Shown piece by piece: positions 13,647 through 60,392 of a DNA stretch of 64,000 bases. Within the stretch, counting starts at the first letter, position 1; each line of letters begins with the position of its first letter. Made by a program: the position numbers and the translations under genes. Below the pieces are notes generated by a model. It ran no database searches and was not told the DNA's origin. It saw only the letters and a program-made list of their open reading frames with translations. This DNA is from Mucilaginibacter arboris (lineage in GTDB: Bacteria > Bacteroidota > Bacteroidia > Sphingobacteriales > Sphingobacteriaceae): the NCBI RefSeq assembly GCF_009754915.1, contig NZ_WPIK01000006.1, forward strand, positions 124,001-188,000. Direction: 5' to 3'.

Positions 13647-14648
13647 GTGGAAGATATAAAGCAATATATTGAATCAGGCATACTAGAACTTTATATTCTG
13701 GATACGTTAAATCCGGAAGAAAAGCTCGAAGTAGAAAGCATGGCTGCTAAGTATCCTGCTATTCAAAAAGAGCTGGACGAAATTAGCCAAGCAATGGAGC
13801 TTTATGCAGAACAAAATGCAGTTGAACCATCTGAAAATTTAAGAGAAACCGTTTTAAACCAGTTAATTGGTACTACGCAAGAACCTGTTTCGGTCCCACA
13901 AAAAAACATTTCAGAAAATAAAAAAGTAATTCCGTTACAAGCTGCCAAACAAACTTATTTTTATAAATATGCTTTTGCTGCCAGTATTGCTTTGCTGCTG
14001 GTTAGTTTAGCTGCCTTGTTTAATATGTATAACCGTTTGCAGGAATCGCGTCAGCAACTGGTTACCCTTCAGTTACAGAACCAAAAATTTGCCAATCAGG
14101 TCAATTTTCAGGAAAGTCAGCTTAATCAATACAAACAGCAATCAGGCGGAACAGCTTTACAAAAGCCTGTTTTTGTGGATAGTGTTACCGTAAAAGGAAA
14201 AACCAATACTCCGGGGTTAATTGCTATGCAATCGGAGTTAAAGCAATCTAAAAAAAGGATACTGGCTTTAGAACTGCAAAATAAAGACCACGAAAAGGAA
14301 TTGAATGCCTTTTCTGATCCTGATACCAGATTTATAAAACTAAAAGGCGTAAAAGATTCTTCTTCTATGCTGCTTGCCTGGAACCCGGAGAAAAAACAAT
14401 TATGGATCAATAAAAAAGCATCCACTTTACCTGCGAACGACCAGCAGCATCAGTATCAGTTATGGGCAATACGTAAACTTAAACCGATTAGCTTAGGTGT
14501 ATTTGATGTTCGTAAAACTGATTCGATTATGGAAAAAATGGCATCTATTGATAAGGCATCTGCTTTTGCTGTAACTTTAGAACCACGCGGAGGAAGCGAA
14601 AAACCAACTATGAAGCAAATGATGGTGATGGGATTTGCACATAAATAG
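13647..14648 (+). CDS. Membrane anti-sigma factor (RskA-like)
   Basis: 333 residues from a GTG at 13647, one base after the sigma-factor stop. The N-terminus (residues 1-75) resembles the zinc-less anti-sigma domain (ELYILDTLNPEEKLEVESMAA). A transmembrane helix is at about 108-128 (FAASIALLLVSLAALFNMY), then a coiled coil (LQESRQQLVTLQLQNQKFAN), then an RskA-type periplasmic domain (LLAWNPEKKQLWI, YQLWAIRKLKPISLGVFD). It should hold the upstream sigma factor inactive at the membrane. Such proteins usually release the sigma factor after proteolysis. Confidence 0.85.
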   Translation: MEDIKQYIESGILELYILDTLNPEEKLEVESMAAKYPAIQKELDEISQAMELYAEQNAVEPSENLRETVLNQLIGTTQEPVSVPQKNISENKKVIPLQAAKQTYFYKYAFAASIALLLVSLAALFNMYNRLQESRQQLVTLQLQNQKFANQVNFQESQLNQYKQQSGGTALQKPVFVDSVTVKGKTNTPGLIAMQSELKQSKKRILALELQNKDHEKELNAFSDPDTRFIKLKGVKDSSSMLLAWNPEKKQLWINKKASTLPANDQQHQYQLWAIRKLKPISLGVFDVRKTDSIMEKMASIDKASAFAVTLEPRGGSEKPTMKQMMVMGFAHK

Positions 14649-55215: not shown

Positions 55216-56004
55216 TTAAACAATAACCCCTTCATTCTTAATCCGATCAATAAAAGCAGGGATTTTATTCAGGTAATCCTTTTCCGAAGCTAACATCTTT
55301 ACAAAAGCACTGCCTACAATAGCTGCGTTGGCATATATACAGGCTTTTGAAAACGCAGCGTGACTGGAAATACCAAAACCAATAACGGTCGGATTTTTCA
55401 ATTTCAGGTTTTGGATGCGTTCAAAATAGCGTTCGACGTTTTCGGAAACTTCCAGGTTTTTACCAGTAATGGAAGAAGAAGAAAGCAGGTAAATAAAGCT
55501 CTGGCTTAAATTATCAATCTTTCGGATCCGTTCTTCCGATGTTTGCGGCGTGACCAGGAAAATGTTGCTTAGGTTATTCTCCAAAAAATACTGCTTGTAC
55601 AAACTTTCATATTCGTACATCGGCAAATCCGGAATTATTACACCATCAGCACCAACTTCAACTGCTTTTTTACAAAATTTTTCTACGCCATATTGTACTA
55701 CCGGGTTAAAATAACCCATTAACAAAACAGGAATCGAAACACGTTTACGCAGATCTTTTAATTGTTCAAACAAAACATTCAGGTTCATCCCGTTTTCCAG
55801 AGCAGTCTGAGAACTATGCTGAATCGTCGGCCCGTCAGCCAGAGGATCTGAATACGGAAAACCGATTTCCAGAAAATCTGCACCTGCTTTTTCTAATGCT
55901 TCGGCAATATTAACCGTAGCATTTAACTCTGGAAACCCAGCCGTATAATAGATAGATAAGAGGTTTTCTTTCCTGGTGGAAAAAAGCTGGTTCAGCCTGT
56001 TCAT
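55216..56004 (-). CDS. trpA: Tryptophan synthase alpha subunit
   Basis: 262 residues from the ATG at 56004 (MNRLNQLFSTRKEN); an in-frame start at 56043 lies inside a hairpin and adds 13 atypical residues. Catalytic residues lie in LEIGFPYSDPLADG (Glu, Asp). It cleaves indole-glycerol phosphate to indole, which is channelled to TrpB. It is the last gene of the operon. Confidence 0.95.
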   Translation of the reverse strand: MNRLNQLFSTRKENLLSIYYTAGFPELNATVNIAEALEKAGADFLEIGFPYSDPLADGPTIQHSSQTALENGMNLNVLFEQLKDLRKRVSIPVLLMGYFNPVVQYGVEKFCKKAVEVGADGVIIPDLPMYEYESLYKQYFLENNLSNIFLVTPQTSEERIRKIDNLSQSFIYLLSSSSITGKNLEVSENVERYFERIQNLKLKNPTVIGFGISSHAAFSKACIYANAAIVGSAFVKMLASEKDYLNKIPAFIDRIKNEGVIV

Positions 56005-56040
56005 GCTTTGTGTTGATGTTAAAAGTAGAAAATTGCTTGG

Positions 56041-56072
56041 CATACTGTTTTTATGCCAGTAAAAACAGTATG
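56041..56072. repeat. CATACTGTTTTTA hairpin between trpB and trpA
   Basis: CATACTGTTTTTA and TAAAAACAGTATG form a perfect 13-bp stem around TGCCAG. It is the sister-motif hairpin inside an operon, two bases after the trpB stop, where it might limit read-through or serve as a processing site. Confidence 0.75.
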
Positions 56073-56074
56073 GT

Positions 56075-57256
56075 TTAAAATCCGAAATGGTTAATGTAAG
56101 TCGTCAAATCTTTATCACCTCGGCCAGAAAGACAAACTACTACAGTTTCATCTCCTTTAAATTTCATTTTTTTAAGCTGGGCCAATGCATGGGCAGTTTC
56201 TATCGCCGGAATAATCCCTTCCAAACGGGAACATTCCAAACCTGCTTCCATGGCTTCATCATCTGTAATGCTTACGTATTCTGCCCGTTTAATTTTATGA
56301 AGGTGTGCATGTTGCGGACCGATCCCGGGATAATCTAAACCGGCAGAAATAGAATAAGGTTCTACCACTTGTCCGTCATCGGTTTGCATTAAAATCGTTC
56401 GGCTGCCATGCAAAACACCTTCTTTACCTAAAACAGAAGTCGCTGCAGATAAACCGGAATCAATCCCTTTTCCGGCAGCTTCCACCGCAACTAATTTTAC
56501 GCTTTCATCATCCAAAAAGTGATAAAACATACCCATTGCATTACTTCCTCCGCCAACACAGGCAACCGCATAATCCGGCAGTTCGCTCCCGGTTTGTTCT
56601 AATAACTGTTTGCGGGTTTCTTCGGAGATGATGGATTGAAAACGGGCAACCATTTCCGGATAAGGAAACGGTCCAACTACAGAACCGATAATATAATGCG
56701 TATCTTCCGGATTGTTGATCCAATCGCGCATCGCTTCATTGGTTGCATCTTTTAACGTTTTGCTTCCTGAAGTTGCCGGAATTACCGTTGCGCCTAACAT
56801 TTTCATCCGGGCAACGTTTGGTGCCTGGCGTTCAATATCCACTTCGCCCATATAAACAACACATTCAATATTTTTTAGCGCACAAACAGTTGCGGTTGCT
56901 ACGCCGTGTTGCCCTGCTCCTGTTTCGGCAATAATCCTTGTTTTACCTAAACGTTGTGCTAATAAAATTTGCCCGATTGCATTGTTAATTTTATGTGAAC
57001 CGGTATGGTTTAAATCTTCCCGTTTAAAATAAATGTTTGCGCCATACAATTCCGAAGTACGTTTTGCGAAATATAAAGGAGAAGGACGGCCAACATAATC
57101 GCGCATTAATTGATTAAATTCATTGATAAAAGAAGCATCCGTAGTAATAGCCAGATATTGCTGCCTTAATTCCTCAATATTCGGGTAAAGCATTTCGGGA
57201 ATATAAGCGCCACCGAAATCGCCGTAATAACCTTGTTCATCAACTCCGTATTTCAT
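56075..57256 (-). CDS. trpB: Tryptophan synthase beta subunit
   Basis: 393 residues. The PLP lysine is Lys89 in [14 protein letters not shown]; the phosphate loop is [13 protein letters not shown]. It makes tryptophan from indole and serine. An exact motif copy at 57125-57138 is read TDASFINEF in the variable stretch just before the conserved YVGRPSPLY. Confidence 0.97.
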
Positions 57257-57271: not shown

Positions 57272-57910
57272 TTATGAAGGAAGCTTGCTGTTTTGCAACT
57301 TTATCAGTTCAAAAGTCCTGCTTAATTTTTCTAAATCTTTTAATCCCGGTGATATTTCAAACCGGCTGTTTAAATCTACACCGTAAAATGCCGGATGTTT
57401 CAGTTTCAAAACACTTTCTATATTTTCTTCACTTAAACCGCCGCTAATAAAAAAGGGCACTTTTAAATGATAATTCTGAAGGATTTGCCAGTTAAAAACC
57501 TCGCCTGATCCGCCATGAGCAGTAGTTTTGGTATCGAACAAAAAGAAATCAACACAATTAGCATAAGGTTCTAATCTGCTAAAATCAAAAGTATCATCAA
57601 CACCAAAAGCTTTAATTACTTCTGTTTGAGTTTTTAAAGCCCCACACATTTCCGGCACTTCGTTTCCATGAAGCTGCACAGCATCAAGCTGATATTTCTG
57701 GATGATACTTTTGATTGTACTAAAGTCTTTATCCACAAAAACACCTACTTTTTTTGCCGGTAAACGAAGTTCGGTCAACTCTTTGTTTGGCTCATAACCC
57801 ACAAAACGCGGCGAATGCGGATAAAAAATAAAGCCCAGATAATCTGGTTGCAAAGCTGCAACTGCCCGGACGTTTTCCGGAAACTTCATACCGCAAACTT
57901 TAATTTTCAT
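57272..57910 (-). CDS. trpF: Phosphoribosylanthranilate isomerase
   Basis: 212 residues. Motifs are IKVCGMKFPENV (catalytic Cys), VGVFVDKDF and the C-terminal phosphate site FFISGGLSEENI with GVDLNSRFE. It isomerises PRA to CdRP. It lies nine bases after trpD and fifteen before trpB. Confidence 0.94.
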   Translation of the reverse strand: MKIKVCGMKFPENVRAVAALQPDYLGFIFYPHSPRFVGYEPNKELTELRLPAKKVGVFVDKDFSTIKSIIQKYQLDAVQLHGNEVPEMCGALKTQTEVIKAFGVDDTFDFSRLEPYANCVDFFLFDTKTTAHGGSGEVFNWQILQNYHLKVPFFISGGLSEENIESVLKLKHPAFYGVDLNSRFEISPGLKDLEKLSRTFELIKLQNSKLPS

Positions 57911-57919
57911 AACGTTTTG

Positions 57920-58909
57920 TTATTGTTCCAACAATGTTTTAAAACTGTTTAACGCCTTCTTACTTTGCAAAGATACACTTGCTTCGTTATAACTGTCTGC
58001 AAATGTTTTTTCGGGATGAATTGTTTTGATGGCCATAGCAGCATTACAAAGCACTACGCTGGTTTGTGCTTCGGTTGCTTCGTTATTTAAAACTGCTGTA
58101 AAAACTGCTGCTGCTTCGGGGACCGTATGGCCGCTGCTAATTTGTGCAGGATGAAGTTTTTGAAGATCAAGCTCATTCAATTTATAAATCCGTTCGCCTG
58201 CATTAGAAAAAGCTTTGAAATCGCAGGTTAAAGAAATCTCATCATATCCATCCAAAGCATGAACAATAGTATAATTTTTATCAGTTTTTTGATAGAGATA
58301 AGCATAAACGCGGGCAAGCTCTAAACTAAAAACGCCAACCATCTGGTTTTTTGGCTTTGCCGGGTTAACCATTGGCCCAAGCATATTAAAAAAGGTTTTT
58401 ACAGCCAGTTCTTTACGGATGGGTGCAATAATTTTCATGGCCGGGTTAAACAATGGCGCATGCAAAAAGCAAATGCCGGCGGTATCAATGCTTCTTTTAA
58501 GCCGGTCAATTTCGTTGGTAAACTGATAACCGAGATATTCCATCACATTAGAAGAACCAGACCCGGAAGAAACGCCATAATTACCATGTTTGGCTACTTT
58601 ATAACCAGCGCCGGCAACTACAAAAGAAGCCAGTGTAGAAATATTGAAAGTATCTTTACCATCGCCGCCTGTACCGCATAGATCGATCAGGTTTTCTGTT
58701 TCTAAATCTACCGGCACGCATAATTCCAGCATCGCATCGCGAAAACCTTCCATTTCATCAACCGTGCTGCTGCGCATACAATAGGCGGTGATAAAAGCAG
58801 CCATTTGAGATGGGTTGTATTTGCCCCTGGCGATGTTGATCAGGATATTTTTAGACTCTTCTTTACCGAAGCTCCTGTTTTCAAATAAATGATTTAAGAT
58901 GGCTTTCAT
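57920..58909 (-). CDS. trpD: Anthranilate phosphoribosyltransferase
   Basis: 329 residues. Key motifs are DLCGTGGDGKDTFNIST (PRPP binding) and VAKHGNYGVSSGSGSSNVMEYLG. It joins anthranilate to PRPP. It is the first gene of this trp cluster, which lacks trpE, trpG and trpC. An exact 12-base motif core at 58488-58499 is read in a third frame (LKRSID). Confidence 0.96.
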   Translation of the reverse strand: MKAILNHLFENRSFGKEESKNILINIARGKYNPSQMAAFITAYCMRSSTVDEMEGFRDAMLELCVPVDLETENLIDLCGTGGDGKDTFNISTLASFVVAGAGYKVAKHGNYGVSSGSGSSNVMEYLGYQFTNEIDRLKRSIDTAGICFLHAPLFNPAMKIIAPIRKELAVKTFFNMLGPMVNPAKPKNQMVGVFSLELARVYAYLYQKTDKNYTIVHALDGYDEISLTCDFKAFSNAGERIYKLNELDLQKLHPAQISSGHTVPEAAAVFTAVLNNEATEAQTSVVLCNAAMAIKTIHPEKTFADSYNEASVSLQSKKALNSFKTLLEQ

Positions 58910-58920
58910 ATCTGCTTAAC

Positions 58921-58933
58921 CTGCCATTGGCAG
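58921..58933 (-). promoter_or_regulatory. Small inverted repeat at the trpD translation start
   Basis: CTGCCATTGGCAG is a 13-base inverted repeat lying 11 bases before the trpD ATG (58909). It could hide the ribosome-binding region. Confidence 0.4.
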
Positions 58934-58976
58934 CTCTAATCGTACAATTATTGGATTTCGTTTTCTTCTGGCAAAT

Positions 58977-59000
58977 AAAAAAGGTTGCTGCTGGCAACCT
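58977..59000 (-). terminator. Leader terminator (attenuator candidate) of the trp operon
   Basis: On the minus strand AAGGTTGC-CAGCA-GCAACCTT is a perfect 8-bp stem with a five-base loop followed by TTTTTTATTT. It lies about 70 bases before trpD in the direction of trp transcription. No minus-strand gene lies upstream. Confidence 0.8.
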
Positions 59001-59334
59001 TGTCTTACAAAATCCTATTTTTATTGCAAGTTTTAATTATTAGTATGATTCTTTAATCTGAACCAAGATAGCAAATATCAAAAAAAATATAAGGATTACA
59101 AAGACGAACACCGGTTACAGGCCAAACAATTATGATGAAGGACCGGATGAAAAGGATTTAAAACGCTAACACCATCAAACCAATTGTAACTGCATAAAAC
59201 AGATTTTACTGTGAGCCTGTTTAAATTTTATTCAACGTATTGCCGATACTTCTTTTATCCGGTAAAATCTGTGATGTCCCTGTAATTTTTAATTTAAAGA
59301 TTATTCAGGCATTAACTTTTTATCGATAAAAGAA

Positions 59335-59348
59335 GCATTGTATTTCTT
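59335..59348 (+). repeat. GATAAAAGAAGCAT motif, exact copy
   Basis: It lies about 95 bases upstream of the Kir channel gene. Confidence 0.85.
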
Positions 59349-59441
59349 ATGATAAAAATTTTAACAGGCTCTGTTTTTACAGCCTTATAATTTTGACACC
59401 ATTGCTTTTTTAACCGGTAAAAAAAGCATAGAGATGCAACT

Positions 59442-60392
59442 ATGTCTTCAAAAAAATATAAAATTCAGGACGACCTGGGCTTAGGTTTACAGCCTGTGGT
59501 AAAAAACCAGCGGGTAATAAACCGCGATGGCTCTTCTAATATCCGCCGTACCGGAACGCCTTTTTTTCGCACGGCAGATACTTATAATGCTTTGATTACG
59601 ATGTCGTGGAGTGCCTTTAACCTGCTGGTTTTCTCTGCTTACCTGCTTATCAATGTACTTTTTGCGCTTGTTTATCTTGCATTAGGGATTGAAAATTTAG
59701 ACGGAATCAGACCAGGGCATTCTGCTTTTATGCACTTTATGGATGCTTTTTTCTTTTCGGCACAAACTATTTCTACAGTTGGTTACGGTCACATCAGCCC
59801 GGCTGGCATAACAACCAGTTTTGTTGCTGCTTTAGAATGTTTAATCGGCCTGCTCAGTTTTGCTTTGGCTACAGGCTTACTTTATGGGCGGTTTTCGCGG
59901 CCTTCTGCAAAAATCCGTTACAGTAAAAATATAATTGTTGCGCCTTATTGGGATATAACCGGTTTGATGTTTAGATTAGCTAATTACCGCAGCAACCAGT
60001 TAATCGAGCTGGAAGTGAGCATAATGCTAACTTATAATGCAACGGTTGACGGAAAAGTTATACGGCAATTTGTGCCCTTAGAACTGGAAAGGAACAGGAT
60101 TAGCCTGCTTACCTTAAGCTGGACAGTTGTGCATCCGATTACCGAAGACAGTCCGCTGAAAACCATGGGGCCAGATTTTTTAAAAACCAGCAAAGCAGAA
60201 TTTATTGTGATGCTGAAAGCTTTTGATGACAGCTTTTCGCAAACGGTACATTCCAGAACTTCTTATAAGGATGAAGAATTGGTTTGGGGCGCACAGTTTA
60301 TATCTGCCATTTCCCTGGATGAAATGGGTGTAAATGTATTGGATTTAACTAAAATCGATGCTTTACAAAAAGTCAGTTTACCTGCAGGATAA
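59442..60392 (+). CDS. Inward-rectifier potassium channel (KirBac family)
   Basis: 316 residues. Two transmembrane helices (about 60-80 and 125-145) flank a pore loop with selectivity filter TVGYG at residues 112-116. The C-terminal cytoplasmic beta domain includes KNIIVAPYWDITGLMFRLANYRSNQLIE, as in Kir channels. It should pass potassium and be gated by the cytoplasmic domain. No neighbouring gene suggests a partner. Confidence 0.93.
   Translation: MSSKKYKIQDDLGLGLQPVVKNQRVINRDGSSNIRRTGTPFFRTADTYNALITMSWSAFNLLVFSAYLLINVLFALVYLALGIENLDGIRPGHSAFMHFMDAFFFSAQTISTVGYGHISPAGITTSFVAALECLIGLLSFALATGLLYGRFSRPSAKIRYSKNIIVAPYWDITGLMFRLANYRSNQLIELEVSIMLTYNATVDGKVIRQFVPLELERNRISLLTLSWTVVHPITEDSPLKTMGPDFLKTSKAEFIVMLKAFDDSFSQTVHSRTSYKDEELVWGAQFISAISLDEMGVNVLDLTKIDALQKVSLPAG

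Follow-up and report, generated by a model that had tools for sequence, protein, structure and literature searches.

The leader of the trpDFBA operon in the window, that is, in the whole 64-kb stretch of DNA that was analysed, is probably a degenerated ribosome-mediated attenuator, in which the leader peptide has been lost and no antiterminator better than chance was found, and which would now act as a fixed, tryptophan-blind terminator. The operon and its upstream neighbour were found to be arranged as follows.

57920 to 58909, minus strand: trpD, anthranilate phosphoribosyltransferase, the first gene of trpD-F-B-A (PF00591, PF02885)
57272 to 57910, minus strand: trpF (PF00697)
56075 to 57256, minus strand: trpB (PF00291; the name was taken from the operon context)
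55216 to 56043, minus strand: trpA (PF00290)
59442 to 60392, plus strand: gene of an inward-rectifier-type K+ channel, the divergent syntenic neighbour (PF17655, PF07885)

The minus strand upstream of trpD was found to contain a hairpin composed of AAGGTTGC, CAGCA and GCAACCTT, followed by the U-run TTTTATTT and by a spacer of 63 nt up to the ATG of trpD at position 58909 (minus strand).

58973 to 59001, minus strand: intrinsic terminator, a perfect 8-bp stem at 58981-59001 followed by the U-run at 58973-58980
58921 to 58933, minus strand: inverted repeat CTGCC-AAT-GGCAG, probably due to chance

When the intergenic region was dinucleotide-shuffled 2000 times, a perfect 8-bp stem followed by at least five T in eight nucleotides appeared in 42 of the shuffles. 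No copy of the hairpin with up to three mismatches was found elsewhere in the 4.16-Mb window genome, and an origin from a dispersed repeat was ruled out by this single copy. No gene runs into the terminator because the neighbour at 59442-60392 is divergent, which ruled out a terminator serving an upstream gene; an intrinsic terminator precedes the first structural gene, as in an attenuator. The first-pass annotation, which had described an attenuator-like terminator in a trp leader without a Trp leader peptide, perfect and with nothing upstream to terminate, was accurate in this. The inverted repeat, to which it had ascribed a possible translational layer, does exist, but the translational layer was rejected, since 141 of 1000 shuffled versions of the 63-nt spacer contained one or more repeats of this kind (stem of 5 bp, loop of 3-8) and the repeat is missing from the congener G002.

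Upstream of the terminator, a putative promoter with the layout TTTG-N19-GATATTTG was found to span 59102-59072 (minus strand), followed by a leader of 70 nt.

59099 to 59102, minus strand: -33 element TTTG of the putative promoter
59072 to 59079, minus strand: -7 element GATATTTG of the putative promoter; relatives contain catatttg at the same place
59002 to 59071, minus strand: leader body of 70 nt, located where relatives encode a WWW peptide, lacking an ATG and any usable Trp codon
59023 to 59030, minus strand: remnant of an antiterminator arm, CTTGCAAT in the window, GCGGCAAT in G002 and AAGGCAAT or similar in relatives

The promoter is a match to the consensus given in PMC7366714, with TAnnTTTG at -7 and TTTG at -33, and from this unmapped match the start of transcription is expected at about 59065-59067. 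No leader ORF with an ATG, GTG or TTG start and at least two Trp codons was found within 600 nt of the window trpD, and the short leader ORF with tandem Trp codons of an attenuator is thus missing, as had been claimed. The sole TGG between the promoter and the terminator was located 6 nt past the -7 box, and its in-frame TTG start codon falls inside this box (the frame was read by eye). A functional leader peptide that escaped notice because of an unusual start codon is hardly credible: frames with ATT, ATC, CTG or TTG starts do exist in the leader, but none that begins downstream of the promoter box contains Trp, and the leader of G002 contains no TGG at all. On these frames, an overlooked Trp ORF starting at a codon other than ATG was rejected.

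The structure upstream of trpD in relatives, which had been put forward as a check, was determined in a sample of 110 loci, consisting of the best 80 of 585 confirmed places and 30 further loci, so that more distant relatives are under-sampled; the removal of four duplicates (L096, L097, L098 and L106) before counting left 106 distinct trpD loci. In 60 of the 106, trpD was found to be preceded by the divergent K+ channel gene, which indicates that the same locus was compared. A leader ORF of 6-45 codons with WW or WxW, followed by a terminator within 90 nt, was present in 97 of the 106 loci and in none of 106 dinucleotide shuffles under the same rule. The leader peptides of relatives were found to carry WWW, WW or WxW, typical ones being MKTINNNWWWLNEIS (L084) and MIIKNLNNNWWWHNEIR (Pedobacter), and the distance from leader stop codon to terminator had a median of 41 nt among the 97 attenuator-bearing loci. 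When the transcript was folded up to the terminator loop, the 5′ arm of the terminator paired upstream with a median probability of 0.34 in the free transcript vs 0.85 with a ribosome on the Trp codons (the footprint being modelled as a simple cut 13 nt past the start of the last Trp codon in the first Trp run), and the upstream pairing increased in 97 of 97 loci. The working state of this attenuator is itself a prediction, namely that a stalled ribosome favours the antiterminator and switches the genes on, as in a classical ribosome-mediated attenuator. A ribosome-mediated trpDFBA attenuator is general among the Sphingobacteriaceae examined.

Nine of the 106 loci failed the leader rule. The upstream sequence of L039 and L100 was merely 204 and 183 nt long, L066 contained a WWW leader followed by an imperfect stem that the terminator rule missed, L081-L083 belong to the genus of the window, and L109 and L110 to other families. 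The remaining locus, L077 of the Sphingobacteriaceae (duplicated as L106; G009:C174), was found to contain neither a Trp leader nor TGGTGG near trpD, which is possibly an independent loss.

The Trp leader before trpD was absent in all three of the examined genomes of the window's genus (the window genome, G001 and G002). In the tree of the TrpD protein, these were found to form one group (100/100) within a supported clade that also contains Mucilaginibacter (99/90), with the window and G001 as sisters and G002 outside; the TrpD proteins of the window and G002 share 89% amino acid identity. Because the genus forms a single clade inside the Mucilaginibacter group, the absence of the leader is a loss. 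The descent from an attenuator is indicated by the position, the promoter box, the terminator core GGTTGC and the neighbour gene, all held in common with relatives. The promoter and the terminator were found to be retained in the window and in G002 with a shortened leader between them, the distance from box to terminator being 70 nt (window) and 58 nt (G002) vs a median of 102 nt in relatives (5-95%: 93-116), which fits a deletion of the leader-peptide cistron. No terminator was found within 600 nt upstream of the G001 trpD, and this genome (L083 / L117, C111, trpD at 13788) was observed to contain a TAGCTTTG box about 25 nt before trpD (read by eye). G001 is apparently the end stage of the decay.

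The terminator 5′ arm of the window paired upstream with a probability of 0.40 vs a shuffle mean of 0.48, and an antiterminator exclusive with the terminator was thus not found. In G002, where the antiterminator arm is still recognisable, the value was 0.58 vs a shuffle mean of 0.36, with 23% of the shuffles reaching 0.58 (300 mononucleotide shuffles of the leader body only were used for each genome). In the window, the predicted partner of the arm remnant is now 59004-59010, with which it would form a small hairpin (59004-59030). A search for TRAP (PF02081) gave no match in the window genome, with the Bacillus subtilis control found, and a search for TrpR (PF01371) likewise gave none, with the E. 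coli and B. subtilis controls found; Rfam gave no match at the gathering score in the whole 64-kb window and two matches, both at chance level, in the leader region at E up to 5. TRAP attenuation and TrpR repression were rejected since neither protein is encoded, and a T-box, a riboswitch or any other Rfam family since none reached the gathering score. The earlier proposal that the leader would need a protein, tRNA or small-molecule sensor was not supported: relatives contain the classical leader-peptide device at precisely this position and the peptide was lost in the window's genus, so no alternative sensor needs to be invoked, and none of those searched for was found. A regulated attenuator without a peptide, in which an RNA-binding protein, a ligand or a trans RNA controls the retained terminator, would be consistent with the conservation of the terminator past the peptide loss and with the competing arm that still forms in G002. 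It is nevertheless improbable, as antitermination in the window is no better than in shuffles, the leader body is identical at only 38 of 60 positions between the window and G002, and the sensors named above are missing.

The conservation of the terminator rests on the same genome pair, window vs G002. The stem and U-run were found to be identical at 23 of 24 positions, the sole change turning a U-A pair into U-G, and the promoter block at 28 of 31, vs 1 of 5 in the terminator loop, 26 of 45 in the spacer from terminator to ATG and 228 of 424 (54%) at the four-fold degenerate sites of trpDFBA. In G001 the contig ends after trpD, and its rows for trpF, trpB and trpA, which are not orthologues, were left unused. 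The stem and U-run differed from the four-fold sites with p = 2e-5 and from the rest of the leader (65 of 110 identical) with p = 3e-4, and for this reason the terminator may be under selection. A useless remnant would be expected to drift, and the terminator may thus have a role beyond passive braking. Provided that one loss of the peptide preceded the separation of the window and G002, the terminator has been kept ever since; a single loss in the ancestor of the genus is the parsimonious reading, not a proven one, and independent later losses would weaken the argument for selection.

These identities bear on two further explanations. According to the first, the terminator is a neutral relic in decay and trpD transcription starts at a newer promoter further downstream; in its favour, the loss of terminator and leader in the sister G001, the TAGCTTTG box near the G001 trpD and a sigma-70-like match at 58947-58974 in the window could be cited. 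This explanation appears unlikely, since stem, U-run and promoter block are far more alike than the neutral sites, while sigma-70 sites numbered 4 vs a shuffle mean of 5.8 and sigma-70 is not the promoter type of Bacteroidota. According to the second, the promoter, the leader of about 90 nt and the terminator make up the gene of a trans-acting small RNA, and trpDFBA depends on read-through for its expression. The conserved parts are indeed a promoter and a terminator, and rnTrpL of Sinorhizobium, an attenuator RNA acting in trans, offers a parallel, but the leader body is poorly conserved between the congeners and lost in G001, which makes such a gene very improbable. It is conceivable, though doubtful, that selection has kept the terminator in at least two species, either setting a fixed ratio of expression between the two trp operons or ending a new small RNA. 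The attenuator would in that case have been re-used as a constant gain setter, and the stages of decay would be represented by the intact relatives, by the peptide-less leaders of the window genome and G002, and by G001, in which the device is gone.

The preferred reading, a degenerated attenuator, would run as follows. The element descends from a classical trpDFBA attenuator, composed of a promoter, a leader peptide with tandem Trp codons, an antiterminator and a terminator, and the leader-peptide cistron would have been deleted in the ancestor of the window's genus, so that a promoter and a terminator with a shorter, non-coding leader between them are left in the window genome. This descent, the loss of the peptide and of an antiterminator beyond chance, and the retention of promoter and terminator are shown by the sequences, while the use of the promoter, its start site, the share of read-through and the missing response to tryptophan are predictions. 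Transcription would start near 59066 and some of the transcripts would end near 58975, with a constant share reading into trpDFBA without an input from tryptophan at this operon. As there is no ribosome to stall and no antiterminator beyond chance, the terminator would be a fixed, tryptophan-independent brake. Tryptophan sensing would then fall to the separate trpE-G-C operon, in which a leader peptide is still present.

The genes trpE, trpG and trpC were found on contig C1 of the window genome (G000), with their leader at L115 4390-4540 and the attenuator itself at L115 4390-4535. The trpE leader peptide was found to be MMNQNHNNNWQSLPKRKAGWCF in the window genome, where it persists together with its own terminator, MIDQNHINSWQKLPKREAGWCF in G002 and MIDQKHNNNWRSLPKRKAG in G001. 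The trpE sample comprised 27 of 30 loci, L144, L146 and L147 being omitted as broken, partial or a different enzyme, and a control site of WW or WxW was present in 22 of the 27 leaders (counted by eye); the leaders without it were the three of the window's genus, L137 and L145. A single Trp was observed in the leader of the window's genus (L115, L119 and L120) where most relatives carry WW or WWW. When stalling was modelled, 5′-arm pairing increased in the window genome (0.16 to 0.59) and in G001 (0.25 to 0.64), and was nearly flat in G002 (0.54 to 0.58). The window genome keeps a separate, weaker attenuator at its trpE-G-C operon. From the single-Trp trpE leaders and the modelled stall responses, tryptophan attenuation appears to have been relaxed in the genus at both trp operons, and lost at trpDFBA.

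A separate observation concerns a dispersed motif, ATGCTTCTTTTA, which was found at 51 places in the window with at most one mismatch vs 1.1 expected, for example at 59246-59257 (plus strand), 59327-59338 (minus), 59418-59429 (minus), 58488-58499 (plus) and 57127-57138 (minus). Its 14-mer form ATGCTTCTTTTACC, again with at most one mismatch, was present in 1938, 2143 and 1209 copies in the three genomes of the window's genus vs 0-13 copies per genome in 38 other genomes of the family and class. On contig C1 of G000 (397 kb; L148-L167), the 12-mer was counted 283 times, a density of about one per 1.4 kb, with both strands represented and no regional skew; 145 of the 283 were intergenic, though 87.5% of the contig is coding, and close pairs were in excess. 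The consensus was ATGCTTCTTTTAYC, followed by the presence of an A/T tract at +18 to +24. The motif is similar to the DNA uptake sequences that are dispersed in Neisseriaceae and Pasteurellaceae; a literature search on uptake sequences gave none for Bacteroidota among the papers listed. This genus-specific motif is possibly of more interest than the trpD terminator.

According to PMC2965389, its authors knew of no leader-peptide system beyond Proteobacteria and Actinobacteria before the Firmicutes case that they describe. Clues to leader-peptide attenuation upstream of amino-acid operons of Flavobacterium are given in PMC9723704, and leader genes are treated broadly in PMC4833913. No description of the trpD attenuator of Sphingobacteriaceae or of its loss was found in the literature covered, from which subscription journals were mostly absent, and no trp attenuator of Bacteroidota turned up among the papers listed. 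Trp-leader attenuators on the two split trp operons are widespread in Sphingobacteriaceae, and the window's genus is a clear-cut example of sensor loss by a classical attenuator inside one genus, with the nearest relatives intact and with the trpE-G-C attenuator, its peptide still present, as an internal control in the same genome.

Ribosome-mediated trp attenuators occur in Escherichia coli and also in Corynebacterium and Streptomyces. The window leader shares with the trpL-type attenuator of E. coli a promoter, a short transcribed leader and an intrinsic terminator before the trp genes, but lacks a leader peptide, Trp codons and an antiterminator that exceeds chance. The trpE-G-C attenuator of the same genome likewise serves the tryptophan pathway and has its own terminator, whereas it keeps a single-Trp peptide and switches in the folding model. 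With the TRAP-controlled trp leader of Bacillus subtilis, the window has in common a leader terminator without a sensing peptide, but its genome lacks a TRAP homologue and no (G/U)AG repeats were seen on reading the window leader. A T-box leader also contains a terminator ahead of an amino-acid operon, whereas the window gave no T-box match in Rfam and its leader is merely about 90 nt long. As with rnTrpL of Sinorhizobium meliloti, a terminated trp leader transcript would be released; rnTrpL, however, encodes a peptide, and an action in trans of the window leader is hypothetical.
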